36,120 bases of DNA, taken from the NCBI GenBank assembly GCA_022775805.1, contig JALFKB010000076.1, positions 1-36,120 on the forward strand, read 5' to 3'. This DNA is from Clostridiales bacterium. Lineage in GTDB: Bacteria > Bacillota > Clostridia > Peptostreptococcales > Anaerovoracaceae. This document shows positions 5,884 to 31,816 of the stretch, in pieces (position 1 is the first letter of the stretch; the number at the start of each line of letters is the position of its first letter). The notes under the pieces were generated by a model. The model searched no databases, was not told the DNA's origin, and saw nothing but the letters and a program-made list of their open reading frames with translations. The translations under genes and the position numbers were made by a program.

Positions 5884-6535
5884 AATCAATGTCTTTCATA
5901 AGCTCATCTATGGTCATGCCGATTCTATGCTCTATTGCCTCAAGAAGTTTGCGAGTCTCTTCCTTTCTTTTGAGGATTGCCTCCCTGGCTCCTGGTGCTC
6001 CATGTCTTTCGGCTTTTTTTATTATGTAATCCATTCTCAGGTCAAGACCTGCATAATGATCCTCCAGGCTAAGACGGTCACCCAAACTTACAAGATCCGC
6101 CTCAGTGAGATGAGCAGCATCATTTGTATACTGATACATCATGTGCACTCTGATTATCTGTTCCTCCTCAGGATAGCCCATATCCCTGCACCAGTCAGCA
6201 CATACATCCCAGTGTCTTTCTTCTACCCTTGCCATGTCGTGAAGCAATCCGGAAGCCCGAATCAGTTCAATATCAAATAATCTGGGCTCTGTTCTGCAGG
6301 TGTCAAAGCTGTGATCCTGAACATATGCGGTTCTTCCGTCCTCCCTGGTAAATTCTTTCATTCTTATGGAGCTGAAACTCCCTGCCAAAGTACCCCCGGC
6401 ATTGTTTAGGGCTTCACCCAGTCTGCAGGCTACTGCCGCAACGGATTTGCAATGCCCGATAACGTGCGAGGGTGTTCCGTAGGCCTCCAGGTATTCCATG
6501 CATTTTTTTCTGTCAGGATGATTTCCCTTTGCCAT
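5873..6535 (-). CDS. HD-domain phosphohydrolase-like protein
   Basis: This 220-residue soluble protein carries an HD metal-binding signature: His24/His28, the HD doublet His99-Asp100 in LLHDMAR, His131 and Asp153 in SLGDRLS. HD proteins typically hydrolyse phosphoesters such as nucleotides or cyclic dinucleotides; the substrate cannot be inferred. Residues 48-88 form an insertion between the first His and the HD doublet, which is unlike YqeK, the HD hydrolase that often follows obgE in Firmicutes. The ATG lies 2 bases after the obgE stop and uses a GAGGAC site inside the end of obgE. Its 3' end overlaps the next gene by 11 bases. Operon membership is clear, function is not. Confidence 0.8.
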   Translation of the reverse strand: MAKGNHPDRKKCMEYLEAYGTPSHVIGHCKSVAAVACRLGEALNNAGGTLAGSFSSIRMKEFTREDGRTAYVQDHSFDTCRTEPRLFDIELIRASGLLHDMARVEERHWDVCADWCRDMGYPEEEQIIRVHMMYQYTNDAAHLTEADLVSLGDRLSLEDHYAGLDLRMDYIIKKAERHGAPGAREAILKRKEETRKLLEAIEHRIGMTIDELMKDIDYEN

Positions 6536-6537
6536 TT

Positions 6538-7875
6538 CTAGTCCTCAAAAACGCTGTAATCTTCTTCGTAGTACTCAAATTCCATATCAAAGAGCTTGAT
6601 GGTATCTCCCTCATCAAGTCCCATTTCCTTAAGCACATCATAGACACCGCTGTCCTCGATGTATTTAAACAGATATCGTCTGGAACCATGATCGTTGAAA
6701 TTTGTCGAGTTAAAAATCTTCTCAAGCTGTCTGCCGGAGATAATATAGTTTTCTCCGTCAAAATCTCCTGTCACCTTCCTGTAGTCAGGATCGTAATCAT
6801 CGGCTTCGAAATCAAAGTATTCGTACTCGTCATCATCCTCCGCAGGATTGGCCTCAACTTCAAGAAGCAGTCTGTATGCTTCCTCGAGCACATCCTGAAC
6901 ACCAATGCCTGCAGCGGCAGACATTGGAAACAGTCTGTAGCCTTCTGCTTCAACGTGTTCCCTGAGCTGTATGTATTCCTCGCATATTTCAAGATCCTCA
7001 GGATCGCTGCTGCAGCCGAGAACATCGATTTTGTTTGCGACAACAATCTGAGGCTTCTTAAGAAGTCTCTCGCTGTAACGGGAAAGTTCGGTGATTATCT
7101 TATCGAAATCCTCCCGTGGATCTCTTCCCTCGCTGCCGGAAACATCTACAATGTGGATAAGAACCTTGGTTCTTTCGATATGCTTCAGGAAATAGTGTCC
7201 CAGGCCTGCCCCCTCATGGGCGCCTTCAATTATTCCGGCAATATCAGCCATTACGAAGCTTGAATCGTAAATGCTCACGACACCGAGATTAGGATCTATC
7301 GTTGTGAAGTGATAGTTTGCTATCTTCGGCTTGGCGCTTGTTGCCATTGCCAGAAGCGAAGACTTTCCCACATTTGGGAAGCCCACAAGGCCCACATCTG
7401 CTATCAGCTTCATTTCAAGAATGACATTTCGCTCCTTGGCAAAGCCCCCGGCTTCAGCAAAATTGGGAGCCTGTCTTGTTGGTGTCTTGAACCTGACATT
7501 ACCCTTGCCCCCCTTGCCGCCTTTCGCAGCAATAAAGGACTGTCCATGCTCTGTCATATCCATCATCACCTTGCCGGACTCCTCATCTATTACCATGGTT
7601 CCAACGGGAACCTTGATAACAAGATCCTGACCGTTTTTGCCGAAACGATTCTTTTTCATGCCGTTCTGGCCGTCTTCCGCTTCGTACTTTCTCTTATATC
7701 TGAAGTCCATAAGGGTTCTGAGATTCTCGTCAGCAAGAAATACCACATCTCCCCCCTTGCCGCCGTCTCCGCCGTCAGGACCTCCCTCCGGAACGAAGGG
7801 TTCTCTTCTGAAAGTAACGGCTCCGTTACCGCCCTTTCCTGATTTAATTGTAATTTTCGCTCTATCTACAAACAT
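6538..7875 (-). CDS. obgE: GTPase Obg/CgtA
   Basis: Essential ribosome-associated GTPase of 445 residues acting in late 50S assembly and stress control. Three domains are visible: the glycine-rich Obg fold (1-158); the G domain with G1 GFPNVGKSS at 165-173, G2 TTID, G3 DIAG at 211-214, G4 NKID at 281-284 and G5 SAAAG; and the Gram-positive OCT domain at the C-terminus with an acidic tail. MFVDRAKITIKSGKGG is the conserved family start, so the ATG at 7875 is chosen over an in-frame ATG at 7911. The chosen start has no Shine-Dalgarno and follows directly on a terminator-like hairpin with a T-rich tail, which is odd for an essential gene. Confidence 0.95.
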   Translation of the reverse strand: MFVDRAKITIKSGKGGNGAVTFRREPFVPEGGPDGGDGGKGGDVVFLADENLRTLMDFRYKRKYEAEDGQNGMKKNRFGKNGQDLVIKVPVGTMVIDEESGKVMMDMTEHGQSFIAAKGGKGGKGNVRFKTPTRQAPNFAEAGGFAKERNVILEMKLIADVGLVGFPNVGKSSLLAMATSAKPKIANYHFTTIDPNLGVVSIYDSSFVMADIAGIIEGAHEGAGLGHYFLKHIERTKVLIHIVDVSGSEGRDPREDFDKIITELSRYSERLLKKPQIVVANKIDVLGCSSDPEDLEICEEYIQLREHVEAEGYRLFPMSAAAGIGVQDVLEEAYRLLLEVEANPAEDDDEYEYFDFEADDYDPDYRKVTGDFDGENYIISGRQLEKIFNSTNFNDHGSRRYLFKYIEDSGVYDVLKEMGLDEGDTIKLFDMEFEYYEEDYSVFED

Positions 7876-7879
7876 AATA

Positions 7880-7909
7880 CAAAAAACAAAGGCCCCTAAA
7901 ATAGGGGCC
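7880..7909 (-). terminator. Terminator-like hairpin between rpmA and obgE
   Basis: A perfect 8-bp stem (GGCCCCTA / TAGGGGCC, 7891-7898 and 7902-7909) with a 3-base loop is followed on the minus strand by TTTGTTTTTTG. It ends only 5 bases before the obgE ATG. It probably attenuates read-through from rplU-rpmA into obgE, because no separate obgE promoter is evident. Confidence 0.7.
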
Positions 7910-7917
7910 ATGATAGT

Positions 7918-8178
7918 TTACGCTTCCTTAGGATATACACTTACCTGCTTTCTCTTCTTGTCGTATCTTTCGAACTTTACAGCTCCGTCAATCTTTGCAA
8001 ATAATGTATCATCTCCACCGATGCCAACATTGTTACCAGGGTGGAACTTTGTTCCTCTCTGTCTAACCAGGATGCTGCCGGCACTTACGAACTGACCATC
8101 ACCGGTCTTAATGCCTAAACGTTTGGACTCGGAATCACGACCGTTCTTCGAGCTACCTACACCTTTCTTACTTGCCAT
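7918..8178 (-). CDS. rpmA: 50S ribosomal protein bL27 without cleavable N-terminal extension
   Basis: The 86-residue protein begins [20 protein letters not shown], the mature N-terminus that reaches toward the peptidyl-transferase centre. In most Firmicutes L27 is made with about nine extra residues that are cleaved by the Prp cysteine protease, encoded between rplU and rpmA. Here the AAGGAGG site sits 7 bases from this ATG, so no extension is made. The 52-base rplU-rpmA gap cannot hold prp. The gene is cotranscribed with rplU. Confidence 0.96.
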
Positions 8179-19619: not shown

Positions 19620-20819
19620 TCACATTACAATCGCCGGTCTTCGCACATAATCTGATTCCACGTACAGACTTCTGCCGCAAAGCAGATTGTAGAAGTCCGC
19701 TGCCTTTGCATCCAGCTCCAGCACTTCCCGGGTCCACCTGAGTTTCTCCGGCATTTTATTAAGATTAGGTACAAAGGCAATACGGTCCGGGTCTGAATTA
19801 CGGATTATTTCACGACCCTTTGCATCAGCCGCCAGAAGTCGTGCTCCCTCCGGGTCTCCCTCAAGGAGCCGGTCAGCCTGTTGTCCCGCAAGACCCAGGA
19901 CTATATAAGTAAGAATTCGCCTTACCGTCGAGGCGGTATACCTTCTGGAAACAAGCCTGTCAACAAGTTCCCCGTAGTCCTGTATCTGTCTTATTTCCTT
20001 GATTATTCTGTTTTCAATTCCTTCGCCTACGGAGTAGATTTCCTGCAGCTCCCGGGAAGTGCTTCGCAGCACAATACCCTTAAGAATCACCAGCATCTCT
20101 TTGTCGATTTTTTCCCGGTTTTCGGCCTCTATGATTCCCGGAACATAGGCTGAAACGGATTTACCCTCCGCCAGCAGTCTCCTTATTTCAGAAGCTCCTG
20201 CGAAGCCCCTCTCCCCGAGATTCTCTATTCCGAAATACCCGGCACCTTTTCTGGGAACGAGGATGTCTTCAATATCGATGCCTCTGTTTCTCCAAAATTC
20301 CATTCTCTTGAGATACTCCACCCCCAGAATGTTGTTGGGGGTCCTTATTGTTTCCGCGGCATCCTTCCCTAAGATTTCACGAACCGCCTCCTGGTGAGCA
20401 GCCGCATGGGAACAGCCCTCCTTCATTATTTCACCGGTTCTTTCCGCAATAGTGCCTTCCTCAGCCAGAAGTGCACTGGCAGTATTTCTCAACAGCTCCG
20501 GTTCGCTGCACTCGCATCCGAAGGAAATGCAGCCGACACCTGCCTTGACAAGGATGTCAACTCCTCCCCTGGCGAAGACAGGAGCTCTGTTGCAGGCAAA
20601 AATAAAGGGCAGTTCAACTACAAGATTTGCCCCGTATCTGACAGCCTGTTCCGCCCTCTGCCATTTATCTGATACAGCAGGTTCCCCCCGCTGGGTGAAA
20701 TCCCCGCTCATAACCACCATGCATGCGTCAGCATTCGAAAGATGCCTTGCTGTCTCCATGTGATATTTGTGTCCGTTGTGAAACGGATTGTATTCAGCTA
20801 TTATTCCTAGGGTTTTCAT
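19620..20819 (-). CDS. tmcAL: tRNA(Met) cytidine acetate ligase
   Basis: The 399-residue nucleotidyltransferase-fold protein (YlbM family) activates acetate with ATP and forms N4-acetylcytidine at the wobble base of elongator tRNA-Met. MKTLGIIAEYNPFHNGHKYH carries the HxGH nucleotide-binding motif at the very N-terminus. The later sequence matches the family: FGCECSEPELL, a central PNNILGVEYLKRM motif and a helical C-terminus. The ATG at 20819 gives the conserved start but has no Shine-Dalgarno; a GTG 16 codons upstream is a poor alternative. A long hairpin ends just before it. Placement beside ackA and rpmF agrees with ylbM gene order in B. subtilis. Confidence 0.9.
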   Translation of the reverse strand: MKTLGIIAEYNPFHNGHKYHMETARHLSNADACMVVMSGDFTQRGEPAVSDKWQRAEQAVRYGANLVVELPFIFACNRAPVFARGGVDILVKAGVGCISFGCECSEPELLRNTASALLAEEGTIAERTGEIMKEGCSHAAAHQEAVREILGKDAAETIRTPNNILGVEYLKRMEFWRNRGIDIEDILVPRKGAGYFGIENLGERGFAGASEIRRLLAEGKSVSAYVPGIIEAENREKIDKEMLVILKGIVLRSTSRELQEIYSVGEGIENRIIKEIRQIQDYGELVDRLVSRRYTASTVRRILTYIVLGLAGQQADRLLEGDPEGARLLAADAKGREIIRNSDPDRIAFVPNLNKMPEKLRWTREVLELDAKAADFYNLLCGRSLYVESDYVRRPAIVM

Positions 20820-20825
20820 ATACAA

Positions 20826-20871
20826 TAAACAGAGTGTGTCATGAAGGGGAACCCCGCTTTCCAACACACTC
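20826..20871 (-). terminator. Large hairpin between the coiled-coil gene and tmcAL
   Basis: An outer 8-bp stem (GAGTGTGT / ACACACTC, 20832-20839 and 20864-20871) encloses an inner GGGG/CCCC stem. It is followed on the minus strand by CTGTTTATTG, a poor T tract. It may be a weak terminator or attenuator; it ends about a dozen bases before the tmcAL start codon. Confidence 0.5.
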
Positions 20872-20888
20872 CCGTATTATTCAGATTC

Positions 20889-21461
20889 TTATTCTTTATC
20901 CTCCATTTTAGGAAGAGGCGCTAACTCCGGCTTAGCCTCAGCATCCATCTGAGCTCTGTATGCCATGTCCTGAAGTTCTTCTCTGTTTGCGGCAAGAGCA
21001 GAGTTAATATCGTTAAACGCCTTCTCTATGCTGGTGAACATCTCACCGAAATAGATAGAACTGAGATGCTCCATCTTGCCCTGGAAGTTATAGAGAATAC
21101 TGTCAAGGTATTCATAAGTTCCAATCTTGAGCTGCTTGGCTGTATCTTCTGTTACTGACATGAGCTCATCAGCTCTGATCTTTGACCTGACAGTAATGTC
21201 GTTGTTCTCAACAAGAGCATCGGCCTGCTTCTGGGCATCGTCAATAACCGCCTCGTACTGCTGCTTTGCCTCGGCGATGATTCTTTCCCTTTCATTCTTT
21301 ATCCACTGAGCCTGCTGTATTTCATCAGGGAGTTCTGATCTTATCTCCCTTACTATCTCAAGCAGTTCCTCGGAATCTATCATAATCTTGCCTGTAAGCG
21401 GAAAACCTGCCGCAGTATCAACTATTTCTTCAATTTCTTCCAGTAATTCTAAAACCCTCAT
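20889..21461 (-). CDS. Coiled-coil protein of unknown function
   Basis: This 190-residue soluble protein is acidic and mostly helical. A short N-terminal region (MRVLELLEEIEEIVDTAAGF) leads into a long coiled coil (about 45-110, rich in Glu, Lys, Gln and Ala), with a C-terminal part ending in a Pro/Glu tail. Similar proteins in Clostridia are often loosely labelled ATPase or ATP-synthase subunit-like, but no nucleotide-binding motif is visible, so I make no functional call. A DivIVA-like or scaffold role is only a guess. GGAGG precedes the ATG. It lies between coaD and tmcAL, where B. subtilis has other ylb genes. Confidence 0.75.
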   Translation of the reverse strand: MRVLELLEEIEEIVDTAAGFPLTGKIMIDSEELLEIVREIRSELPDEIQQAQWIKNERERIIAEAKQQYEAVIDDAQKQADALVENNDITVRSKIRADELMSVTEDTAKQLKIGTYEYLDSILYNFQGKMEHLSSIYFGEMFTSIEKAFNDINSALAANREELQDMAYRAQMDAEAKPELAPLPKMEDKE

Positions 21462-21483
21462 TGCATCCTCCTATCAAACGGCC

Positions 21484-21957
21484 TTACTTTGACATTCTCT
21501 TCATAATTTCATCCGGAACCAGACCTTCAATACTGCCTCCCAGTGAATTCACTTCCTTTACCATGGATGAACTGATAAATGAGTACCTGGGATCCGTCAT
21601 CAGAAACACCGTTTCAACATTCTCGTTAAATAGACGTGCATTCATCTGTGCCATCTGGATCTCATAATCAAAGTCTGTCGTCCCCCTGAGACCTCTGACA
21701 ACTACATTATACCCGTTACTGTTAACGTAATCTGCCAGGAGCCCGGCGAAATGATCCACCCTGACATTATCAAGATCCTTAACCGCTTCGGAAATCATCT
21801 CTTTACGTTCTTCCAGAGCGAACATTGTTTTCTTTTGAGGATTATCTATGACTCCAACGGTTACCTCATCATAAAGCCTTGATGCCCGCCGGATAATGTT
21901 CATATGACCCATTGTCAAAGGGTCAAAGGACCCGGAATATAACGCCTTGGTTTGCAT
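21484..21957 (-). CDS. coaD: Phosphopantetheine adenylyltransferase
   Basis: The 157-residue hexameric enzyme adenylates 4'-phosphopantetheine to dephospho-CoA, the penultimate step of CoA synthesis. The nucleotidyltransferase motif GSFDPLTMGHMN near residues 8-19 and the ISSSMVKE motif near 130 are present. The ATG at 21957 sits 5 bases after a GGGAGGAG site; the longer reading from 21993 is rejected. rsmD-coaD adjacency is widely conserved in Firmicutes. A promoter is visible in the short gap upstream. Confidence 0.95.
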   Translation of the reverse strand: MQTKALYSGSFDPLTMGHMNIIRRASRLYDEVTVGVIDNPQKKTMFALEERKEMISEAVKDLDNVRVDHFAGLLADYVNSNGYNVVVRGLRGTTDFDYEIQMAQMNARLFNENVETVFLMTDPRYSFISSSMVKEVNSLGGSIEGLVPDEIMKRMSK

Positions 21958-21983
21958 AGAAACTCCTCCCGTTTTCTCAAAAA

Positions 21984-22012
21984 ATTTTATCACAGCTCAT
22001 TTATTAAAGCAA
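21984..22012 (-). promoter_or_regulatory. coaD promoter
   Basis: Minus strand: TTGCTT (22012-22007), 17-base spacer ending in TGA, TAAAAT (21989-21984), an extended -10 configuration directly after the rsmD stop codon. Confidence 0.55.
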
Positions 22013-22579
22013 CTACATATTGTCATAAATTGACAGTGCCACCACACCATATCGTCTCTCTTTTATACGATGAAAACCGCTTATTTCCTCAGGCAGAATT
22101 TCCTCTTTCCTGTGCTCCGCCACAATCACGCCATCGCTGGCCAGTATGTTTCCCTGCTTAATAAGCTCGAAGGCTTCAGGAAGAAGCCCTTTGTTGTAAG
22201 GCGGATCGAGTAAAATGATATCAAAGGGTTCCTCCAGCCCGTCCTCAATGCGATCTGCCAGATTCTTGAGAATCTTTTTGTAGTCCCCGGCTGCAACCCT
22301 GGTCTTCTCCTCCACCTTGCAGTGTTCAAGATTCTCCTTAACAAGCTTGAGGCTTTTGCCGGATGCATCCGCGAAGAGACAGTAGGACGCTCCCCTTGAG
22401 AGAGCCTCTATGCCCAGGCTCCCCGTGCCTGCAAACAAATCGAGAACACGGCTGTCGTATAATTGATTCGCCAGGATACTGAACAGGGCCTCCTTGGCCT
22501 TGTCAGATGTTGGTCTTATGTCATAATCCTGCGGCGTATTCAGTTTTCTTCCTCTGTATTTTCCCGTTATTACTCTCAT
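22013..22579 (-). CDS. rsmD: 16S rRNA (guanine(966)-N2)-methyltransferase
   Basis: The 188-residue class I SAM-dependent methyltransferase acts on G966 of 16S rRNA (E. coli numbering) in 30S assembly. SAM-binding motif I is DLFAGTGSLGIEALSRGA and the catalytic motif is LLDPPYNKG, typical for base N2 methylation. The N-terminal MRVITGKYRGRKL is the family signature. The ATG at 22579 follows a GAGG site; an in-frame GTG two codons upstream is possible. It begins 7 bases after the recG stop, so it is cotranscribed. Confidence 0.94.
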   Translation of the reverse strand: MRVITGKYRGRKLNTPQDYDIRPTSDKAKEALFSILANQLYDSRVLDLFAGTGSLGIEALSRGASYCLFADASGKSLKLVKENLEHCKVEEKTRVAAGDYKKILKNLADRIEDGLEEPFDIILLDPPYNKGLLPEAFELIKQGNILASDGVIVAEHRKEEILPEEISGFHRIKERRYGVVALSIYDNM

Positions 22580-22586
22580 GTTCACC

Positions 22587-24644
22587 TCATAGGTTCAAAG
22601 AAAAATCTTCTCCGAACAGTTTAATTACTCTAGCTTTAAGCGGCTGGTTTTCGGCCTTCAAAAGCCTTGGATCCTCCTCAATAATTGCCTTTGCCTCATC
22701 CCTGGCTCTGCTCAGCACATCCATGTGACGGACCATGTCGGCAATTTTCATATCAGGGAGTCCGTGCTGTCTCGTACCGAAGATTTCCCCCGGTCCGCGA
22801 TTTTTCAGATCCTCCTCTGCGATATAAAACCCGTCTGAAGACTCCTCCATTATCTCGCCCCTTCTTTTGGCAATCTTCGATTCGCTTCCCAGTATCAGGA
22901 AACAATAGGACTGAAATCTTCCTCTGCCCACACGGCCTCTCAGCTGGTGGAGCTGGGCAAGTCCGAACCTCTCCGCATTTTCCACAACCATTACCGTGGC
23001 GTTGGGAACATTGATTCCCACCTCTATAACAACAGTGGCAACGAGAACATCTATATCCCCGCTGTTGAATTTTTCCATTATTTCATCCTTCTCGGACTGT
23101 TTCATTCCTCCGTGAATCAGGGCTGTCCTCTCAAAAATCGATGACAGTTCCTCATGCACCTCACTGGCGGATCTGGCGTCCATTGCCTGGGACTGATCAA
23201 TGAGAGGGGTTACAACATAAGCCTGCCGTCCCTGATGCACCTGTCTTTTCACAAATTCGTAGCATTTTCTTCTTGATTCTTCACCTTCAATGCAGCGGGT
23301 CTTAACAGGCTGTCTGCCCGGGGGCATTTCGTCTATTACAGACACATCCATGTCACCGTACAGAACCACTGCCAGAGTTCTTGGAATCGGGGTTGCCGTC
23401 ATAACCATTACATTGGGATTCTCCCCCTTCTCCTTCAGCCTTATTCTCTGATTAACGCCGAATCTGTGTTGTTCATCTGTAATGACAAGCCCCAGATTGC
23501 AGAATTTCACCTCCGGCTGTATCACCGCATGGGTTCCGACGATAATATCGGAGCTGCCATCCTCAATCCCGGCAAGGGTCTCTCTCTTTTCAGACGCCTT
23601 CATGCTTCCCGACAGAAATGCAACCTTTATCCCATATCTTGCAAAGGCAGCCTTCAGCCCTTCGTAATGCTGCCTGGCAAGTATCTCCGTAGGCGCCATC
23701 ATCACAGCCTGATAGCCGCTTTTTGCTGCCTTGAACATTGCGATCTCGGCTACTGCCGTCTTGCCGGAACCCACATCACCCTGCACAAGTCTGTTCATGG
23801 CCTTCCTTCCCGAAAGATCAGCCATAATCTCCTTCACACATCTTTGCTGAGCAGAGGTCAATGGGAAAGGCATGGAATCAATATACTCCTCCTCCAGCGG
23901 ACTTCCGCTGAAAACAGCCCCGGTTTCAGTTCCGGAATTTCCCCTTCCGGCAGCCATAAGGCCTGTTTCCAGAACCATGAATTCGTCAAATACCAGCCGG
24001 TACTTACCCTCCAGAAGTTTCTTCTTGTCTACGGGAGAATGGATGTTCTCCAGAGCATATTCAATCCCGCAGAGTCTGTATTTATTTATGGTTTCCTCAG
24101 GGAGAATGTCAGGAACCTGAGCATAAAGAGGTTTGACAATCCTTTGAATTCGCCTCATTTCTCTCTGAGAAATGCCCTTGGTGAGGGGATAAACAGGAAG
24201 TATCTCTCCTTTTACCTCTTCAGTTTTCTCGAATTCAGGATGGATAACCTGAAGCCTTCCTCTGTTCATCCGCGGAACGCCGAAGCACACAAGAAAGTCT
24301 CCGGGCTTCACTGTTCCTGCCAGATAGGAGGCATTAAAAAAAACAACCTCAACAGAGCCTGTGTTGTCAGAAATCAGCAGCTTCAGCACCCTCCTGCCTC
24401 TGCTTCTGAAGCCCGAGGGATTCACAAGATCAACCTTTCCCGCAAAAACAGCAGGTTCACCCTCCTTAAGCCCACTGACGGGCACAACATTTCGGCGGTC
24501 TTCGTATATCCGCGGAAGGGTGAAAATCAGGTCTTCGATGGTTTCTATTCCTATGCGCGCAAAAGCCTCGGCCTTTTTAGGGCCGATTCCTTTTATCGTT
24601 GTGATGCTGTCTTGAAGTTTCATGTTCTGATAACAGGTCATCAT
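22587..24644 (-). CDS. recG: ATP-dependent DNA helicase RecG
   Basis: A 685-residue branch-migration motor that regresses stalled forks and processes recombination intermediates. It has an N-terminal HhH-like segment (ITTIKGIGPKKAEAFARIG), the wedge OB domain (about 60-160), a helicase domain 1 with Walker A QGDVGSGKTA at 288-297 and a DEQH box, and helicase domain 2 with QLRGRVGRG. The first ATG overlaps the gls24 stop (ATGA); an ATG seven codons later at 24623 gives the more usual N-terminus, and neither has a strong ribosome site. The fakA/yloV gene commonly found between gls24 and recG is absent. Confidence 0.95.
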   Translation of the reverse strand: MMTCYQNMKLQDSITTIKGIGPKKAEAFARIGIETIEDLIFTLPRIYEDRRNVVPVSGLKEGEPAVFAGKVDLVNPSGFRSRGRRVLKLLISDNTGSVEVVFFNASYLAGTVKPGDFLVCFGVPRMNRGRLQVIHPEFEKTEEVKGEILPVYPLTKGISQREMRRIQRIVKPLYAQVPDILPEETINKYRLCGIEYALENIHSPVDKKKLLEGKYRLVFDEFMVLETGLMAAGRGNSGTETGAVFSGSPLEEEYIDSMPFPLTSAQQRCVKEIMADLSGRKAMNRLVQGDVGSGKTAVAEIAMFKAAKSGYQAVMMAPTEILARQHYEGLKAAFARYGIKVAFLSGSMKASEKRETLAGIEDGSSDIIVGTHAVIQPEVKFCNLGLVITDEQHRFGVNQRIRLKEKGENPNVMVMTATPIPRTLAVVLYGDMDVSVIDEMPPGRQPVKTRCIEGEESRRKCYEFVKRQVHQGRQAYVVTPLIDQSQAMDARSASEVHEELSSIFERTALIHGGMKQSEKDEIMEKFNSGDIDVLVATVVIEVGINVPNATVMVVENAERFGLAQLHQLRGRVGRGRFQSYCFLILGSESKIAKRRGEIMEESSDGFYIAEEDLKNRGPGEIFGTRQHGLPDMKIADMVRHMDVLSRARDEAKAIIEEDPRLLKAENQPLKARVIKLFGEDFSLNL

Positions 24645-25006
24645 CCTATTTCGATATGTCGTCTGGCAATTTCTCTGGACTGAACCCCCGTAACCACGAT
24701 TTTAACCCGGTTAGGACGTTCCCCCATTACCTTTTCCACATTATCAAATATGTAATTGCGAATTTTCTCTGTTGAATCGTGAATGCTGACACCGAAATTA
24801 ATTACAACATAAACAGTAATATCGACGCCCTCCGGTGTTTCCACAAAAACCACTTCGTCGTTTCCAGGCATTACGCGCTTGTATTTACCTTTGTAGTTCA
24901 ACAGTGAAACCCGCCCGTCACAGGATGCAACAGCATCCTCTACAATCTTTAATATGACGTTTCTTGAGAAACGTATATCTCCCAGTCTGTTTCTTATTTC
25001 CAGCAT
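24641..25006 (-). CDS. Asp23/Gls24 family envelope stress response protein
   Basis: A 121-residue cytosolic protein of the Asp23/DUF322 family (YloU-like). Family marks include the N-terminal GDIRFSRNVILKIVEDAV, the central hydrophobic strand VDITVYVVINFGVSI and the C-terminal VKIVVTGV. These proteins are linked to envelope stress and often to fatty-acid kinase. It directly precedes and overlaps recG. There is no Shine-Dalgarno; a perfect TGN-extended -10 ends 6 bases before the ATG, so the messenger may be leaderless. Confidence 0.88.
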   Translation of the reverse strand: MLEIRNRLGDIRFSRNVILKIVEDAVASCDGRVSLLNYKGKYKRVMPGNDEVVFVETPEGVDITVYVVINFGVSIHDSTEKIRNYIFDNVEKVMGERPNRVKIVVTGVQSREIARRHIEIG

Positions 25007-25012
25007 ATCAGT

Positions 25013-25021
25013 ATTATATCA
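25013..25021 (-). promoter_or_regulatory. Extended -10 promoter giving a leaderless gls24-recG transcript
   Basis: Minus strand TGATATAAT: TGA (25021-25019) plus consensus TATAAT (25018-25013), directly after the rpmB terminator T tract. No clear -35. With the usual 7-base step the +1 is position 25006, the A of the gls24 ATG. Confidence 0.6.
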
Positions 25022-25023
25022 TA

Positions 25024-25050
25024 AAAAAACACCTGCGTCCTGCAGGTGTT
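25024..25050 (-). terminator. Intrinsic terminator after rpmB
   Basis: An 8-bp stem ACACCTGC / GCAGGTGT with a 5-base loop, followed on the minus strand by seven T. It begins 10 bases after the rpmB stop codon. Confidence 0.9.
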
Positions 25051-25059
25051 AAATCCAGA

Positions 25060-25251
25060 TTAGAGGGCACGTTCAACTTTGCCTGATCTGAGGCATCTAG
25101 TGCATACCTTTGCTCTTCTAACTGTTCCATTGTCGTTAATTCTAACAGTCTGGATGTTTGCATTCCACTTTCTTCTGGTGTGTCTGTTTGAGTGGGATAC
25201 ATTGTTTCCGGAAACCTGTCCTTTTCCGCAAATTTCACACTTGTTTGACAT
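25060..25251 (-). CDS. rpmB: 50S ribosomal protein bL28
   Basis: The 63-residue protein begins MSNKCEICGKGQVSGNNVSH and continues with HTRRKWNANIQTVRI. It retains two CxxC zinc-ligand pairs (CEIC and CTRC), the C+ paralogue type. GGAGG lies 8 bases before the ATG at 25251; three upstream in-frame codons are untranslated. It has its own promoter and terminator. gls24 next door is a conserved neighbour. Confidence 0.96.
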   Translation of the reverse strand: MSNKCEICGKGQVSGNNVSHSNRHTRRKWNANIQTVRINDNGTVRRAKVCTRCLRSGKVERAL

Positions 25252-25318
25252 CTCTCGCACCTCCTTGTTTATTTGGTATATTCAGCCTTAGGCATAATTT
25301 CAGACTCGAACATTAGAG

Positions 25319-25347
25319 ATTATAGCACAGTACATTGTCCTATGCAA
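25319..25347 (-). promoter_or_regulatory. rpmB promoter
   Basis: Minus strand: TTGCAT (25347-25342), 17-base spacer ending TGC, perfect TATAAT (25324-25319), also an extended -10. It lies in the gap after nrdG, for which no terminator is visible. Confidence 0.8.
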
Positions 25348-25369
25348 GAAGTATTTTATCATTAAATTC

Positions 25370-25879
25370 TTAACCTTCCCATAAAACAATTTTCATTTCT
25401 TCTCTCGTTCTGTTCATATCGATGACACGCTGATTGGAACTGCCCCTGAACTGCAGATTCAAGTCACGCTTATCCATTATGAATGGACCGTCAATCAGTA
25501 TATCACACATCTCAAGGAGCTCACCGATAGCAGGAGTATCCTCCGCCATTTTCAGAAGCTGCTCCAGTGTATACCCCGTATAGATGGTGATTGTCTTTCC
25601 TCTAGCCTTAACCTCTCTTCCCAGCACTGCAAATCCTTCAGGCTGGCACATGGGCTCTCCGCCGGAAAATGTCATTCCCGACAGCAGAGGATTCTTGTCG
25701 AATTCCTGAAGAATCCTGTCAATTTTAACTTCATTTCCCCCTGCCGGATCGTGAGTTTCGGGATTGTGACATCCCGGGCAACCATGGGGACAGCCCTGAC
25801 AAAAGACCGCAAATCTTATGCCCGGGCCGTCTACTATCGACTCTCTCATTATTCCGGCGATTCTCAATGAATCAGCCAT
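25370..25879 (-). CDS. nrdG: Anaerobic ribonucleoside-triphosphate reductase activating protein
   Basis: A 169-residue radical SAM activase that installs the glycyl radical on NrdD. The cluster motif is CPHGCPGC (CxxxCxxC), preceded by ESIVDGPGIRFAVFCQG. A GGEPM motif for SAM binding follows. The ATG at 25879 sits 6 bases after AGGTG; a GTG three codons earlier is less likely. It follows nrdD by 17 bases and is cotranscribed with it. Confidence 0.95.
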   Translation of the reverse strand: MADSLRIAGIMRESIVDGPGIRFAVFCQGCPHGCPGCHNPETHDPAGGNEVKIDRILQEFDKNPLLSGMTFSGGEPMCQPEGFAVLGREVKARGKTITIYTGYTLEQLLKMAEDTPAIGELLEMCDILIDGPFIMDKRDLNLQFRGSSNQRVIDMNRTREEMKIVLWEG

Positions 25880-25896
25880 CTTATGCACCTCTTTTC

Positions 25897-28251
25897 CTAC
25901 TGAAGCTGTTCAAGCTCCTCACCGCTGTCCATGGTGTGCTTAACACGATCAGCCTCCTCAGCCGATTTGGCATCGTTCCAGTTATCCATTGTGCCCACAA
26001 GATAACCTGTTATCCTTCTTATTCTTTCGAAGCCCACATCACCGTAATCCTCTGTTCTGCCGCAGCATGGACACTCGTTGTTTATGATTCCGGTAAAACC
26101 GCATACAGGATCTCTGTCAACAGGGTGATTGATGGAACCGTAGCCTATTCCGCTCTCCTTCATGCATCTGACAACCTGTTCGAAGGCATCGAGATTCTTT
26201 GTAGGATCTCCGTCAAGCTCGATGTAACTGATGTGTCCTGCATTTGTAAGCGCATGGTAAGGCGCTTCCTTCTTAATCTTCTCGAAGGCATTGATGTTAT
26301 AGTATACAGGAACATGGAAGGAATTAGTGTAGTACTCCCTGTCTGTTACACCCTCGATAACTCCGTACTTGGCTCTGTCTATTCTCACGAAACGACCTGA
26401 CAGACCTTCAGCCGGTGTTGCCAGAAGAGTATAATTGAATCCTGTCTTCTTCGACTCTTCATCAAGCTTCTTTCTCATGAACCCGATTATCTCCAGGCCC
26501 ATTGACTGAGCCTCCATAGATTCACCGTGGTGAACTCCCATAAGAGCCTTCAGACACTCGGCGAGACCAATGAAACCTACGCTGAGAGTTCCGTGTTTGA
26601 GAATCTCGCCCACGGTATCGTCTTCCTTGAGCTTATCGGAATCAATCCATACTCCCTGTCCCATAAGGAATGGGTAGTTCCTGACTTTTTTTGCTGCCTG
26701 AATCTTGTATCTCTCCATGAGCTGATCCATAGCCAGATTGATCTTTCTGTCAAGCTCTTCGAAGAACCAGTCAATATCTCCATGTGCCTTAATGGCAATT
26801 CGCGGCAGATTGATGGATGTGAAGCTGAGATTTCCTCTTCCCCCCACAACCTGTCTTGACGGATCGTAAATGTTTCCTATAACTCTGGTTCTGCAGCCCA
26901 TATATGCAATTTCAGTATTAGGATCGCCTTCCTTGTAATACTGAAGGTTAAACGGAGCATCAATAAATGCGAAATTAGGGAAGAGCCTCTTGGCAGAAAC
27001 CTTCATGGCAAGCTTGAACATGTCGTAGTTCGGATCTTCCGGATTGTAGTTGATGCCCTCCTTTACCTTGAAAATGCTTACCGGGAAGATAGCTGTTTCC
27101 CCGTTACCAAGCCCTGCTTCGATTGCAAGCAGGATATTCTTTATTACAAGTCTTCCCTCAGGAGAAGTATCCGTACCGAAGTTTATGGATGAAAACGGAA
27201 CCTGAGCTCCGGCTCTGGAATGCATGGTGTTGAGATTATGTACAAACGCCTCCATGGCCTGATAAGTAGCCCTGTCAACCTCATCGTTTGCATACTTGGT
27301 AGCCTTCTTCTGGATTGTTGCTATGTACTTTCTGTCAATAAGCTTCTGGAGATACTCTGCCTCGACTTCCTTGTAGCCGTTATCGTCGGCGATAATCGGA
27401 TAGAGATCGTATTTCTCCATTATTTCTCTGCCGATTTCCTTAACCTTGTCAACACCTTCCTCTATATCGAAGAGGAGATTCAGCATTTTGCCAACATTTG
27501 TCCAGTAAAGCTTTCTGAAGGTCTTCACCACGCCGTTCTTCATTCCGTAATCAAAGTCTGCGATACTCTGACCGCCGTGCTGGTCATTCTGGTTAGACTG
27601 AATGGCAATGCAGGCAAGGGCTGAATAGCTCTGAATATCATTAGGTTCCCTCAGGTGACCATGTCCCGTCGAGAATCCGCCCTTAAACAGCTTCTCTATA
27701 TCAATCTGACAGCATGTAGTTGTCAGTGTAAGGAAGTCCATGTCATGAATGTGAATATCTCCCTCCCGGTGAGCCTTGGCATGCTCAGGCTTGAGTACAA
27801 ACATTTCATAGAACTGCTTGGCTCCCTCGGAACCGTACTTGAGCATTGTACCCATAGCGGTGTCGCCGTCGATATTGGCGTTTTCCCGCTTGGTGTCGTT
27901 GTCCTTGGCATCCTTGAAAGTGAGATCCTCATAAGTCTTCATGAGCCTTGTGTTCATGTCCCTTACACGGGTACGCTCAGCTCTGTATAGTATGAACTCC
28001 TTAGCAGTTCTGGCATGACCGTTCTCAATGAGAACCTTCTCTACCGCGTCCTGAATTTCTTCAACAGTAGGAATATCGTTATGACGAACTTCTGTAAGAT
28101 AAAGCTCAACCTGTCTTGCCAGGTAGTTGGAGGTGTCTCTGTCCTGTCCTCCCAGAACTTCCGCTGCCTTATATATCGCATCGGATATCTTGGCAATATC
28201 GAAGTCAACAGTTCTGCCGTCTCTTTTTATTATCTGTTTAATTTCACTCAT
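25897..28251 (-). CDS. nrdD: Anaerobic (class III) ribonucleoside-triphosphate reductase
   Basis: The 784-residue glycyl-radical enzyme makes deoxyribonucleotides from NTPs without oxygen. An N-terminal ATP-cone (about 1-95) gives allosteric control. The ten-stranded barrel follows. A C-terminal zinc site uses Cys in VCGFTGIINNECPCCG, and the radical-site glycine lies in RITGYLVGTMDNWNDAK. The ATG at 28251 follows GAGGG at 7 bases; earlier in-frame codons are leader. It is followed by nrdG. A promoter with NrdR-box-like sequences precedes it. Confidence 0.96.
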   Translation of the reverse strand: MSEIKQIIKRDGRTVDFDIAKISDAIYKAAEVLGGQDRDTSNYLARQVELYLTEVRHNDIPTVEEIQDAVEKVLIENGHARTAKEFILYRAERTRVRDMNTRLMKTYEDLTFKDAKDNDTKRENANIDGDTAMGTMLKYGSEGAKQFYEMFVLKPEHAKAHREGDIHIHDMDFLTLTTTCCQIDIEKLFKGGFSTGHGHLREPNDIQSYSALACIAIQSNQNDQHGGQSIADFDYGMKNGVVKTFRKLYWTNVGKMLNLLFDIEEGVDKVKEIGREIMEKYDLYPIIADDNGYKEVEAEYLQKLIDRKYIATIQKKATKYANDEVDRATYQAMEAFVHNLNTMHSRAGAQVPFSSINFGTDTSPEGRLVIKNILLAIEAGLGNGETAIFPVSIFKVKEGINYNPEDPNYDMFKLAMKVSAKRLFPNFAFIDAPFNLQYYKEGDPNTEIAYMGCRTRVIGNIYDPSRQVVGGRGNLSFTSINLPRIAIKAHGDIDWFFEELDRKINLAMDQLMERYKIQAAKKVRNYPFLMGQGVWIDSDKLKEDDTVGEILKHGTLSVGFIGLAECLKALMGVHHGESMEAQSMGLEIIGFMRKKLDEESKKTGFNYTLLATPAEGLSGRFVRIDRAKYGVIEGVTDREYYTNSFHVPVYYNINAFEKIKKEAPYHALTNAGHISYIELDGDPTKNLDAFEQVVRCMKESGIGYGSINHPVDRDPVCGFTGIINNECPCCGRTEDYGDVGFERIRRITGYLVGTMDNWNDAKSAEEADRVKHTMDSGEELEQLQ

Positions 28252-28261
28252 GATTGGTCCC

Positions 28262-28277
28262 TCACTATATATTGTGT
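28262..28277. promoter_or_regulatory. NrdR box 1 upstream of nrdD
   Basis: TCACTATATATTGTGT matches the NrdR operator pattern ACACwATATATwGTGT at 15 of 16 positions. It lies just upstream of the nrdD ribosome site, downstream of the predicted +1. Confidence 0.7.
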
Positions 28278-28297
28278 TATTTTCGACTCCATTGAAA

Positions 28298-28325
28298 ATT
28301 ATACACAAAATATCCGCACCGTCAA
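28298..28325 (-). promoter_or_regulatory. nrdD promoter with degenerate second NrdR box
   Basis: Minus strand: TTGACG (28325-28320), 16-base spacer, perfect TATAAT (28303-28298). A half-conserved NrdR-like site (ACACAAAATATC, 28303-28314) overlaps the spacer and -10; its start is 41 bases from box 1, about four helical turns, as expected for paired NrdR sites. Confidence 0.65.
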
Positions 28326-28346
28326 TACGCAAACGCACAAAACAGG

Positions 28347-28373
28347 AAAAAACCCCGAATCAATTTCGGGGTT
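28347..28373 (-). terminator. Intrinsic terminator after the GNAT gene
   Basis: A 9-bp stem AACCCCGAA / TTCGGGGTT with a 5-base loop and a T tract on the minus strand, directly past the acetyltransferase stop codon. Confidence 0.9.
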
Positions 28374-28386
28374 AACTGTAATTTTT

Positions 28387-28941
28387 TTATGTATATAACT
28401 TGAAGTATTCCTCACTCAGCATGGACATCAGATTGAGATCGTAATATACACCATCCTTGATACAGGCGTTTCTGGCAACCCCCTCGTCGACAAAGCCCAG
28501 CTTCCTGTAAAGCTTTGCCGCCTTTGCATTTCCTGTGAAATAATCAAGGGTTACCCTCTCCAGTTTCATCTCTTCGAAGAAATGTTTAAGAAGCCCCAGA
28601 AGCACTTCCGTACCCACACCTCTTCCTCTATTGCTGCCTCCAACATAGATTTTAGTGATGTCAAGGGATCTGTAGTGGGGCTCCATCCTCGTTATTATTA
28701 TGCGACCCAGGGGTTCCTTTGTGTTCTTGTCAGTAATGGTCATGTCACGGGAATAACTGCCGTTTCTCAGTTCAAATCCCTCGGTAACTACCTGTTCATA
28801 GGTCCTGCCTTCATCTATGGCGAAGTACTTCACCATTTCCCTGTCCCTCTCCCATTCGGTAAATAATTCATAGTCGCCGAATTCAGCGTCCCTGATAATG
28901 AAATTTTCTGTTATTATTGTTGATTTCATTGATACTTTCAT
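28387..28941 (-). CDS. GNAT family N-acetyltransferase
   Basis: A 184-residue acyl-CoA transferase of the RimJ/RimL-like branch (Acetyltransf_3 type). The pattern starts TENFIIRDAEFGDYELFTEW, with the CoA pyrophosphate loop SNRGRGVGTEVL at about 107-118 and the late GNAKAAKLYRKLGFVDEG motif. The acceptor is unknown: it could be a ribosomal protein N-terminus, an amine or an antibiotic. The ribosome site AGGTG is 10 bases before the ATG, a rather long spacing. It is monocistronic with a strong terminator, and diverges from the lipoprotein gene. Confidence 0.85.
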   Translation of the reverse strand: MKVSMKSTIITENFIIRDAEFGDYELFTEWERDREMVKYFAIDEGRTYEQVVTEGFELRNGSYSRDMTITDKNTKEPLGRIIITRMEPHYRSLDITKIYVGGSNRGRGVGTEVLLGLLKHFFEEMKLERVTLDYFTGNAKAAKLYRKLGFVDEGVARNACIKDGVYYDLNLMSMLSEEYFKLYT

Positions 28942-28985: not shown

Positions 28986-28995
28986 TATAATATCA
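28986..28995. promoter_or_regulatory. Overlapping divergent -10 elements (lipoprotein and GNAT)
   Basis: TATAAT on the plus strand (28986-28991) overlaps a TGA-extended TATTAT on the minus strand (TGA 28995-28993, TATTAT 28992-28987). The same bases may serve both divergent genes. No good -35 is seen for either. Confidence 0.4.
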
Positions 28996-29051
28996 CTTGT
29001 GCAATATCATTATATTAACACTTAGATTACGAGACAAGGAGATTTTGACGC

Positions 29052-30449
29052 ATGAGACGTGTCATACCGTTTATTATTTCAATAACAATGCTGTCTGTTC
29101 TGCTTTTTTCAGGCTGCGGTGAAGTTAACAGGGACAATGAGTTAAAAGAAATGCTTAATGCAAACGAGGATTCACTGGAGGATACCATAACAGAGGACAC
29201 TTGCGATTTCGAGATGTTCTCCGATTATATGAAGACCTGGGCCAAGAGCAGCGATGTTAACCTGGCATTCAGAGGCAGCCACAGCCTTGCAATAGTAAAC
29301 GATGCCACACAGGGTTGCGAAAACGAGCCTTCCGTAACACTGCTCTGCAGCTTCTGCACCACCGATACACAAAGCAGTATCCAGACTGTTGCTACAGCGT
29401 CAACTGCCCTTCTGGGACCGGTAGATCACGGGAAAATCACACTGATTATTACCGAAAACAATGATGGCCGTCACATGGGAATTAATGAGGTACCGAACAG
29501 ATTCATTGCTTCAGACTATCTTATTAATCTTCAGACTTCATCAAGTGACACCATTCTGGTTTCGGGGCCAAAGAATGCAGTCTGCAGCTTCCGCATGAAT
29601 GGCTCAACTGAAGCTCCACGGTACGCCAAGGCATACGAAATCAAAATGACCATGCCGAAATATACTGATCCCTACAACTTTGTAAAGGGCAGCAACTATC
29701 CAAATCCCATCAATACCATAGGATCTCTTTTGGCTAACTCCAAAAGTTCGGGAAAGCTGTTTGACATAGCCTCCTTCACCTGTAATACAAAGGAGGGCTA
29801 CACACCGAATACTGCCACTGCTGTAATAGTAATAGACTCAAACAGCGTTGACAGTATTCTGAGCAAATTCGAAAAGTCTTACAGCGGTGTGGAAGACAAG
29901 TTTGAGAGCCTTGAATCAAATTTTGTATATACAATGACTGAAACCGAGATGCCTGAAACCGTTCTCAGTGACGAAACCAGCAACAATCTCGTCAGCCTCA
30001 TGTATACCTTGAATACAGGAATGTGTTTGCAGGAGGAGGAAACGGGCATCGTTCTGGCCGCATCCTACATTCAGAGCATAGATACTGACAATGGTAATCT
30101 GAGCATGAAGCTGGATTTGAGAACAAGGGGCGAGAGCTATCTTGACAGCATTTCATCAGAATATGAAACGACTGCAGGACTGTGCAACACCGATTACAAA
30201 TGTTTGAAGAAGGGCTATGTATGGCATTCCGCCGAGAAATCAAAACTCGTATCATTCTTCTCATCCACTGTTCCTCTTCTTGAGGGTGACAGCAACATAA
30301 GCCTGAAGAAGTACGAGAATGATGAGATTGCCCCTCGTCTACCCAATCAGGATATGATAATATACACCTTCGAAAAGAATAACCGCAAAACCGTTCTCCA
30401 GAACATCACTCATTTCATTGATCCCGATTCGGCAAAGGAACAGCAGTAA
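29052..30449 (+). CDS. Lipoprotein, probable inactive homologue of PepD (M20C) dipeptidase
   Basis: A 465-residue protein with a lipoprotein signal (MRRVIPFIISITMLSVLLFS) and lipidated Cys22 (FSGC), so it is exported and membrane-anchored. From about residue 50 it follows the layout of aminoacyl-histidine dipeptidases: FSDYMKTWAK; then ATQGCENEPSVTLL, matching the family pattern ATPGYENAPTVILQGHLDMV; then HGKITLIIT, LINL, the lid-domain segment with GYTPNTATAVIVI, and LVSLMYTLNTG. Expected metal and catalytic residues are replaced: His to Ser100, Asp to Cys102, the Glu-Glu pair to Asn136-Asn137, and the LDSEE Asp to Gln161. It is therefore likely a pseudoenzyme, perhaps a peptide-binding or structural protein. 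AAGGAG precedes the ATG by 10 bases. Confidence 0.65.
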   Translation: MRRVIPFIISITMLSVLLFSGCGEVNRDNELKEMLNANEDSLEDTITEDTCDFEMFSDYMKTWAKSSDVNLAFRGSHSLAIVNDATQGCENEPSVTLLCSFCTTDTQSSIQTVATASTALLGPVDHGKITLIITENNDGRHMGINEVPNRFIASDYLINLQTSSSDTILVSGPKNAVCSFRMNGSTEAPRYAKAYEIKMTMPKYTDPYNFVKGSNYPNPINTIGSLLANSKSSGKLFDIASFTCNTKEGYTPNTATAVIVIDSNSVDSILSKFEKSYSGVEDKFESLESNFVYTMTETEMPETVLSDETSNNLVSLMYTLNTGMCLQEEETGIVLAASYIQSIDTDNGNLSMKLDLRTRGESYLDSISSEYETTAGLCNTDYKCLKKGYVWHSAEKSKLVSFFSSTVPLLEGDSNISLKKYENDEIAPRLPNQDMIIYTFEKNNRKTVLQNITHFIDPDSAKEQQ

Positions 30450-30461
30450 CACCAATAAAAG

Positions 30462-30497
30462 AGCTGCCGCGCTTTAAGTATAGCGCAGCAGCTTTTT
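30462..30497 (+). terminator. Bidirectional terminator between the lipoprotein gene and murA
   Basis: Stem AGCTGC-C-GCGCT / AGCGC-A-GCAGCT (one mismatch) with an 8-base loop, followed by TTTTT on the plus strand and by a TCTTTTATT tail on the minus strand. It can end both convergent transcripts. Confidence 0.85.
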
Positions 30498-30544: not shown

Positions 30545-31816
30545 TTAATCCTCTACCCTTTCGATTAAGGCACCGAGACCTCTCAGCTTATCAACAAAAT
30601 GTTCATACCCTCTATCGATATGGTAAATCTGTGAAACTTCTGTAGTTCCCTCTGCCACCAGACCGGTGAGAACTACGGCTGCTCCGGCTCTAAGGTCGGT
30701 TGCTGCCACCTGGGCGCCCTTAAGCTCTCTATTTCCGGGTATTATGGCACATTTCCCCTCAGTTCTGATGTTTGCACCCATCTTGTTGAACTCGGCAACA
30801 TGCATGAAACGGTTCTCGAAAACCGTTTCCATCACAACACTTGGGCCCTTTGCCACAGTCAGAAGTGCCATGAACGGAGACTGCATGTCCGTTGGAAAAC
30901 CCGGATAAGGCAGTGTTTTGATATCAGTTGATACTATAGGGTTCCTGCTGCCGTCAACGATAACACCCCTGTCAGTTACATCAATCTCAACTCCGCACTC
31001 TCTCAGTTTGGCTATTACTGCCTTGAGATGATCCGGAAGCATGTTTTTTATCAGTATTTTTCCTCCTGTAATTGCCGCACTGACCATGAATGTTCCAGCC
31101 TCTATCCTGTCCGGAATTACATGGTGGGAAACCCCGTGAAGCTTCTCAACACCTTCAATTTTAATTGTTCCGGTACCGGCGCCCTTGATCTTAGCTCCCA
31201 TCTTGTTAAGGAAGCTTGCCAGATCCACTATTTCTGGCTCCTGGGCTGCGTTTTCCAGAACCGTGGTTCCCTCCGCCAGTGCTGCAGCCATGATAATCAC
31301 CTCTGTTGCGCCCACACTCGGAAAGTCCAGATAAATTGTTGCTCCGTGAAGTCTATCTGCCTTTGCATCCACAATTCCCTTCTGCAGGGACTGCTCATCT
31401 ATCTCGGCACCGAGAGCCTTAAGCCCCTTCAGGTGAAGTTCAACAGGTCTCTCTCCTATGGCACAGCCCCCCGGCAGATGGATAAGGGCTCTTCCGCTTC
31501 TCAGAAGCAGTGCCCCAAGAACCAGAATAGATGCTCTCATCATTTTTACCAGATCAAAGGGCGCTTCACTGATTATCTCTCCCTCGGCCTTAACCGTTAC
31601 ACGGTTTTCGTCCAGGTTTTTGCGGACACCTGCTCCCAGACTTTCAAGAAGGCTGCACATCACATCCACATCTCTAAGGGCGGGTACGTCCTTGATGACA
31701 CACTCCTCATCTGTAAGAAGCGTAGCAGCCATAATAGGCAGCACAGCATTCTTGGAACCGCTTATAGTTACTTCGCCTCTCATCGGACCGCTTTTTTTTA
31801 CTAGAAATTTTGCCAC
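30545..31816 (-). CDS. murA: UDP-N-acetylglucosamine 1-carboxyvinyltransferase
   Basis: The 423-residue enzyme transfers enolpyruvate from PEP to UDP-GlcNAc, the first committed step of peptidoglycan synthesis and the fosfomycin target. It has Lys22 in SGSKNAVLP, and the reactive Cys118 in PGGCAIGERP, which predicts normal fosfomycin reactivity; in some phyla this residue is Asp. It starts at a GTG 9 bases after GAGGAG. It follows the abrB-like gene across a terminator-like hairpin, with no clear promoter between them. Confidence 0.96.
   Translation of the reverse strand: MAKFLVKKSGPMRGEVTISGSKNAVLPIMAATLLTDEECVIKDVPALRDVDVMCSLLESLGAGVRKNLDENRVTVKAEGEIISEAPFDLVKMMRASILVLGALLLRSGRALIHLPGGCAIGERPVELHLKGLKALGAEIDEQSLQKGIVDAKADRLHGATIYLDFPSVGATEVIIMAAALAEGTTVLENAAQEPEIVDLASFLNKMGAKIKGAGTGTIKIEGVEKLHGVSHHVIPDRIEAGTFMVSAAITGGKILIKNMLPDHLKAVIAKLRECGVEIDVTDRGVIVDGSRNPIVSTDIKTLPYPGFPTDMQSPFMALLTVAKGPSVVMETVFENRFMHVAEFNKMGANIRTEGKCAIIPGNRELKGAQVAATDLRAGAAVVLTGLVAEGTTEVSQIYHIDRGYEHFVDKLRGLGALIERVED

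Follow-up and report, generated by a model that had tools for sequence, protein, structure and literature searches.

The window analysed here, a 36,120-nucleotide stretch of a Clostridiales contig (JALFKB010000076.1; family Anaerovoracaceae), carries at 29052..30449 on the plus strand a gene for a 465-residue protein that, judged by its sequence, is almost certainly an extracytoplasmic, membrane-anchored descendant of the cytosolic zinc dipeptidase PepD (peptidase family M20C) that no longer cuts peptides. The assignment draws on the open reading frame, a match to TIGR01893, an AlphaFold2 (AF2) model and a fold match to the PepD structures 2qyv and 3mru. The two genes flanking this pseudo-peptidase gene, one for a GNAT acetyltransferase (28387-28941) and murA (30545-31816), are both encoded on the minus strand, so that it stands alone on its own strand there, as an earlier note on this DNA had described. 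It is present as a single copy in a 1.49 Mb assembly of 139 contigs that is 94% complete.

The protein starts with a signal peptide and an FSGC lipobox (29052..29117; this and the following protein features lie on the plus strand), with predicted lipidation at Cys22 (29115-29117), and the lipobox cysteine was found in all 50 members of the first set compared. For the wider comparison we used 88 dead copies, 45 from the genus of the window and 43 spread over 40 further genera in its taxonomic family, the latter picked mostly from the better-scoring matches. L002 and L003 (from the same genomes as L004 and L005) and L092 (identical to L064) were excluded from all counts, and L026 and L064, whose start position is ambiguous, from set A1. 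L092 (genome G353, genus g5) lies on a 3.5 kb contig and is the same as L064 of the window's genus on the kept columns; this is likely a misplaced contig in a metagenome-assembled genome. By a simple hydropathy and lipobox rule, with L091 and L101 as borderline cases, 76 of the 88 copies have a lipobox and the other 12 an N-terminal membrane helix instead. Cys22 is kept in 45/45 same-genus copies. The earlier description of an exported, membrane-anchored lipoprotein is confirmed. Among 30 cytosolic PepD controls, chosen for passing the TIGR01893 cut-off, 29 lack both types of anchor, and the exception (L038) lies in an extension upstream of the likely start, leaving 0/30. Since the type of anchor varies while anchoring is constant, membrane location is suggested to be what selection keeps.

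The M20C two-domain fold spans the full length of the protein. The window protein matches TIGR01893 with an E-value of 2.7e-20, which falls short of the curated cut-off, and a profile-to-PDB search reached 5.8e-35; all 42 members of set A2 match TIGR01893 at 1e-3 or better. Its AF2 model has a predicted local distance difference test score (pLDDT) of 92.4, and PepD chains rank first in both Foldseek and VIA-align for two separate models. Another fold was considered and rejected, as nothing outranks these chains in either search. A Pfam scan of the window protein returned chance matches only (BAP, 0.3; SAM_KSR1, 0.88), and M20_dimer is matched at 0.01 or better by 3 of 48 members (best E-value 1.5e-4). 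From alignment to 3mru and 2qyv, with limits estimated from DSSP, the first part of the catalytic domain covers residues ~27-186 (29130..29609) and has lost its metal site, the lid or dimerisation domain covers residues ~187-395 (29610..30236), and the second part of the catalytic domain covers residues ~396-458 (30237..30425).

A study of Vibrio alginolyticus PepD (PMC6271292) gives His80, Asp119, Glu150, Asp173 and His461 as metal ligands, Asp82 and Glu149 as required for catalysis, and Arg369, Asn260 and His219 of the lid as holding the substrate, an Arg369Ala mutant being dead. In the window protein, alignment places Ser100 and Cys102 at His80 and Asp82 (29349..29357), Asn137-Asp138 at Glu149-Glu150 (29460..29465), Gln161 at Asp173 (29532..29534) and Lys446, in the second catalytic part, at His461 (30387-30389). 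The bridging ligand Asp119 falls within a deletion of ~32 residues whose exact point, within 29376..29402, is uncertain; the spacing between the His80 and Glu149 columns is 37 residues as against 68-70 in PepD. None of the five metal ligands is identical to PepD, Glu150 being replaced by Asp. Of the residues that the earlier note had listed as changed, Ser100, Cys102 and Gln161 were right, whereas its Asn136-Asn137 was off by one position. It had also overlooked Arg357 (30120..30122), the counterpart of the substrate carboxylate-binding Arg369, which is kept in 44/45 same-genus copies and is the only one of the three lid substrate residues that the window protein retains. Gly249 stands at the Asn260 position, and His219 is replaced by Asp206 (29667..29669), which is Asp in 43/45 same-genus copies; none of these copies retains His219.

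The loss is shared across the sample. Same-genus copies keep no metal ligand in 31 cases, one in 11 and two in 3, and other-genus copies none in 21, one in 15, two in 6 and three in 1, counts that are if anything too high because the aligner still places an Asp119 column in deleted copies. The maximum among the 88 is thus 3/5, in contrast to 5/5 in all 30 cytosolic controls. Asp82 is retained in 19/45 same-genus and 18/43 other-genus copies, and Glu149 in 2/45 and 7/43, respectively, while the Asp119-segment deletion is found in 45/45 and 35/43. No replacement set of conserved His, Asp or Glu residues was evident, so that the intact ligand set elsewhere in the sequence that could have overturned the earlier proposal was not seen, and a single His, His126, which also occurs in active PepDs, is retained in at least 85% of same-genus copies. 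Because a metal site is lacking, the PepD mechanism is impossible for the window protein, and the earlier proposal of a PepD fold stripped of its metal and catalytic residues is supported by the searches with sequence profile and fold and by the cytosolic controls.

Matches to the window protein were found in 62 of 100 related genomes: 45/49 of the same genus, 6 from the family's remaining genera and 11 from elsewhere in the order, the last overlapping in position with cytosolic PepD matches. Profile searches, in which active PepDs are included, matched 207/296 genomes and 62/92 genera of the taxonomic family, at least 232/297 genomes at order level and, at an E-value of 1e-30, at least 62/391 genomes at class level. 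The copies examined from outside the family (L170, L171, L175 and L176) have their residues intact in 4/4 cases, and the dead clade is likely confined to this family. The earlier note had proposed as its own test a search for orthologues that share these ligand losses; such a conserved family is present in 41 genera (that of the window plus 40). Its distribution also bears on whether the dead protein might, as an inactive partner subunit, regulate an active PepD alongside it in the cell, as its shared fold and conserved dimerisation domain might suggest. In 22 of the 45 same-genus genomes the dead copy is accompanied by a cytosolic PepD that passes the TIGR01893 cut-off; however, 23/45 hold none, including seven genomes at least 94% complete, that of the window among them (two of the 23, G024 and G041, carry a partial PepD), which argues that the dead protein is not a PepD subunit. 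Moreover, the dead protein is exported whereas the active PepDs are unanchored. Given the co-occurrence counts and the differing location, we regard this partnership as very improbable.

The gene is under purifying selection, as judged from the ratio of nonsynonymous to synonymous substitution rates (dN/dS), which was 0.059-0.211 in the 12 closest same-genus pairs by simple counting of the Nei-Gojobori type, with several dS values above 1. Conservation is higher in the lid than in the catalytic domain both in the 45 same-genus copies (0.652 versus 0.540) and in the 43 other-genus copies (0.427 versus 0.377), while the 30 PepDs show the reverse (0.558 versus 0.680). When the domain labels were shifted circularly, 8 of 422 shifts gave a contrast between genus and PepD as large as this one, with the lid limits (187-395) estimated. 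The best-conserved domain has thus shifted from the catalytic domain in active PepDs to the lid in the dead family. Within the lid, residue conservation across the clade marks a family motif, Ser315-Glu329 (SLMYTLNTGMCLQEE; 29994..30038). Among the residues characteristic of the clade are Trp63, Cys99, Pro219, Pro301, Tyr318 and Leu377. Tyr318 occurs in 100% of the copies within the genus and 93% of those from other genera, Cys99 in 89% and 67%, respectively, and Glu329 in 93% of same-genus copies. Clade-fixed new residues such as Cys99, Tyr318 and Glu329 could belong to a new catalytic site on the fold, either metal-independent or with new ligands, but no conserved cluster of His, Asp, Glu or Cys extends beyond single residues, and we consider such a site improbable.

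In a tree of 122 rows the cytosolic PepDs form one side of a branch with a support of 100, and a reduced tree of 89 rows gives the same split, with the 54 anchored dead proteins as a single clade (support 100); L107, L114, L115 and L119 (long branches), L092 and 30 of the 45 same-genus rows were left out of the latter. The dead clade groups with L172 and L175 with a support of 100, the branching order inside this group being open. Eight of the 43 other-genus copies (L081, L100, L105, L106, L113, L118, L119 and L120) have a His80-to-Glu149 spacing of at least 59 residues, and those included in the trees fall outside the main deletion-bearing clade, which suggests that the ligands were lost first and the Asp119 segment later. 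The result is a graded series of active cytosolic PepDs, apparently active anchored M20C proteins, anchored copies with the Asp119 segment, and fully dead copies.

Three of the less degraded anchored copies with the Asp119 segment present come from genera g108, g76 and g95 (L100, L105 and L106, respectively). L105 retains 3/5 metal ligands and has lost the general base; L100 and L106 score equally high with the PepD profile and the dead-family profile and could be annotated as dipeptidases. Naming by sequence could mislabel less degraded copies as dipeptidases, the best TIGR01893 match among them having an E-value of 4e-102.

The pseudo-peptidase gene adjoins an Asp23-RecG-RsmD-CoaD gene group in 20/20 same-genus loci and in 29/38 other genera, often with NrdD, NrdG and a GNAT gene in between, which points to a single ancestral position on the chromosome. 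The syntenic genera include ones with a membrane-helix anchor (L111, L112, L116 and L117) and two less shortened copies (L113 and L120); of the nine genera without syntenic neighbours some have short contigs, so not all are true absences. The recurring neighbours are GNAT, NrdD, NrdG, Asp23, RecG, RsmD and CoaD, joined within the genus by MurA, and no same-strand operon partner of the pseudo-peptidase gene was found. In the window, the conserved core genes form a minus-strand run at 19620-28941 (HIGH nucleotidyltransferase, CoaD, RsmD, RecG, Asp23, NrdG, NrdD and GNAT) that points away from the pseudo-peptidase gene. Some genera have anaerobic ribonucleotide reductase genes inserted between Asp23 and the pseudo-peptidase gene, and others lack them. 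Between the CoaD and HIGH nucleotidyltransferase genes lies a gene (20889-21461, minus strand) for a 190-residue protein without a Pfam match, relatives of which stand at the same place in 11/61 loci. A possible -10 element, TATAAT (28986..28991, plus strand), was seen by eye and missed by the promoter scan, and an AAGGAG ribosome-binding site (29036..29041, plus strand), also seen by eye, lies 10 bases 5' of the ATG. A 12-pair hairpin (30462..30493) separates the gene from the convergent murA; the scan reported it on the minus strand, we assign it to neither, and the hairpin count was not above that in shuffled sequences.

That the protein is a decaying pseudogene or a misaligned active enzyme is hardly credible. 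The ligand positions do vary freely between copies, and the window model deviates from the crystal structures by a root-mean-square deviation of 7.5 Å over 423 residues (Foldseek template modelling score 0.54). However, the presence of the gene in 45/49 same-genus genomes and in 41 genera, its synteny and the low dN/dS all speak against decay, and the profile alignment of the window protein with 3mru shows no break near the lost ligands. The large deviation would fit a different angle between the domains, and the L111 model superposes at 4.8 Å.

Selection has kept the anchor, the fold and the lid. Based on these observations, we take the protein to be a surface binding protein and tentatively propose, with somewhat less than even confidence, that it acts via ligand binding through the lid. 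The two-domain clamshell would remain folded without metal and the lid, which in PepD grips the peptide carboxylate and forms the dimer, would be the working part. Within the genus, the retained Arg357 together with Asp206 at the His219 position fits a pocket for a carboxylate ligand, in which the two residues would grip something small, for instance an amino acid or a peptide; ligand holding at the cell surface would serve uptake or sensing.

Several observations weigh against this proposal. Arg357 is retained in only 14/43 other-genus copies and Asn260 in 0/45 same-genus and 9/43 other-genus copies, which makes one clade-wide carboxylate ligand doubtful; either the ligands differ between genera or the common function is protein docking. 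Covariation outside the genus is weak, Asp206 occurring in 5/14 copies with Arg357 and 2/29 without, and Arg357 and Asp206 are expected to face a pocket by analogy with PepD. No transporter gene recurs beside the pseudo-peptidase gene in same-genus neighbourhoods, where the recurring neighbours are housekeeping genes, and permease and ATPase genes are absent from the recurring neighbours among clusters common to several loci.

Alternatively, an anchored dimer could serve as a scaffold that docks another envelope protein (for example a protease, secretion part or cell-wall enzyme) via the lid with no small ligand, an explanation that we take seriously but doubt. It accords with the anchor and fold, rather than substrate residues, being common to all 88 copies, and with cross-genus conserved residues that are mostly Pro, Gly, Tyr, Trp or hydrophobic (Trp63, Pro219, Pro252, Pro301, Tyr318 and Leu377), as expected for fold or docking. 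The Asp23-family gene often found nearby bears the Pfam label 'cell envelope-related function'; however, this neighbourhood may merely be inherited gene order, no partner gene is linked except core housekeeping genes, and docking leaves the retention of Arg357 within the genus unexplained. Binding of a ligand or partner by the lid is the best but unproven account of function, and of the two we favour ligand capture by a small margin. The wider view of a dedicated surface receptor across this Clostridia family, in which the ancestor was anchored, the zinc site was lost once, and the lid captures or reports peptides or amino acids in the cell's surroundings, seems rather unlikely.

The dead family forms a class of M20C pseudo-peptidases at the cell surface that lacks annotation and is probably specific to its lineage. 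This surface protein is old, has been inherited vertically in a large Clostridia group and has so far had no name, and with it the question of a dead dipeptidase's surface role becomes directly testable. We found no description of an M20C pseudo-peptidase or an anchored PepD in the open-access PMC literature, which is weak as proof of absence. The window protein resembles the aminoacyl-histidine dipeptidase PepD (3mru, 2qyv) in its full-length two-domain fold, profile match and, in the genus, the Arg369 counterpart, but differs in being exported and anchored and in having lost the metal ligands, general base and Asp119 segment, with His219 and Asn260 lost in 45/45 same-genus copies. L172, a cytosolic M20C PepD of genus g70 in this taxonomic family, is a neighbour of the dead clade in the tree, yet keeps every one of the ten active-site and substrate residues and has no anchor. 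L175, from genome G752 of another family of the class (gene at 6498-8171, plus strand), shares an N-terminal membrane helix and a close tree position with the dead clade, but retains the full set of ten residues for metal binding, catalysis and substrate and is apparently active. In the family of L175, 19/38 genomes match, and among the matches listed only that of L175 reaches back to residue 1, the rest beginning at residue 49 or later. Transferrin receptor and nicastrin are eukaryotic dead relatives of clan-MH peptidases, of the M28 type, in which a surface-anchored, metal-free zinc-exopeptidase fold is reused for binding or docking. If the surface-receptor reading is true, the dead PepD family would be a bacterial counterpart of these dead zinc-exopeptidases reused as animal surface receptors.
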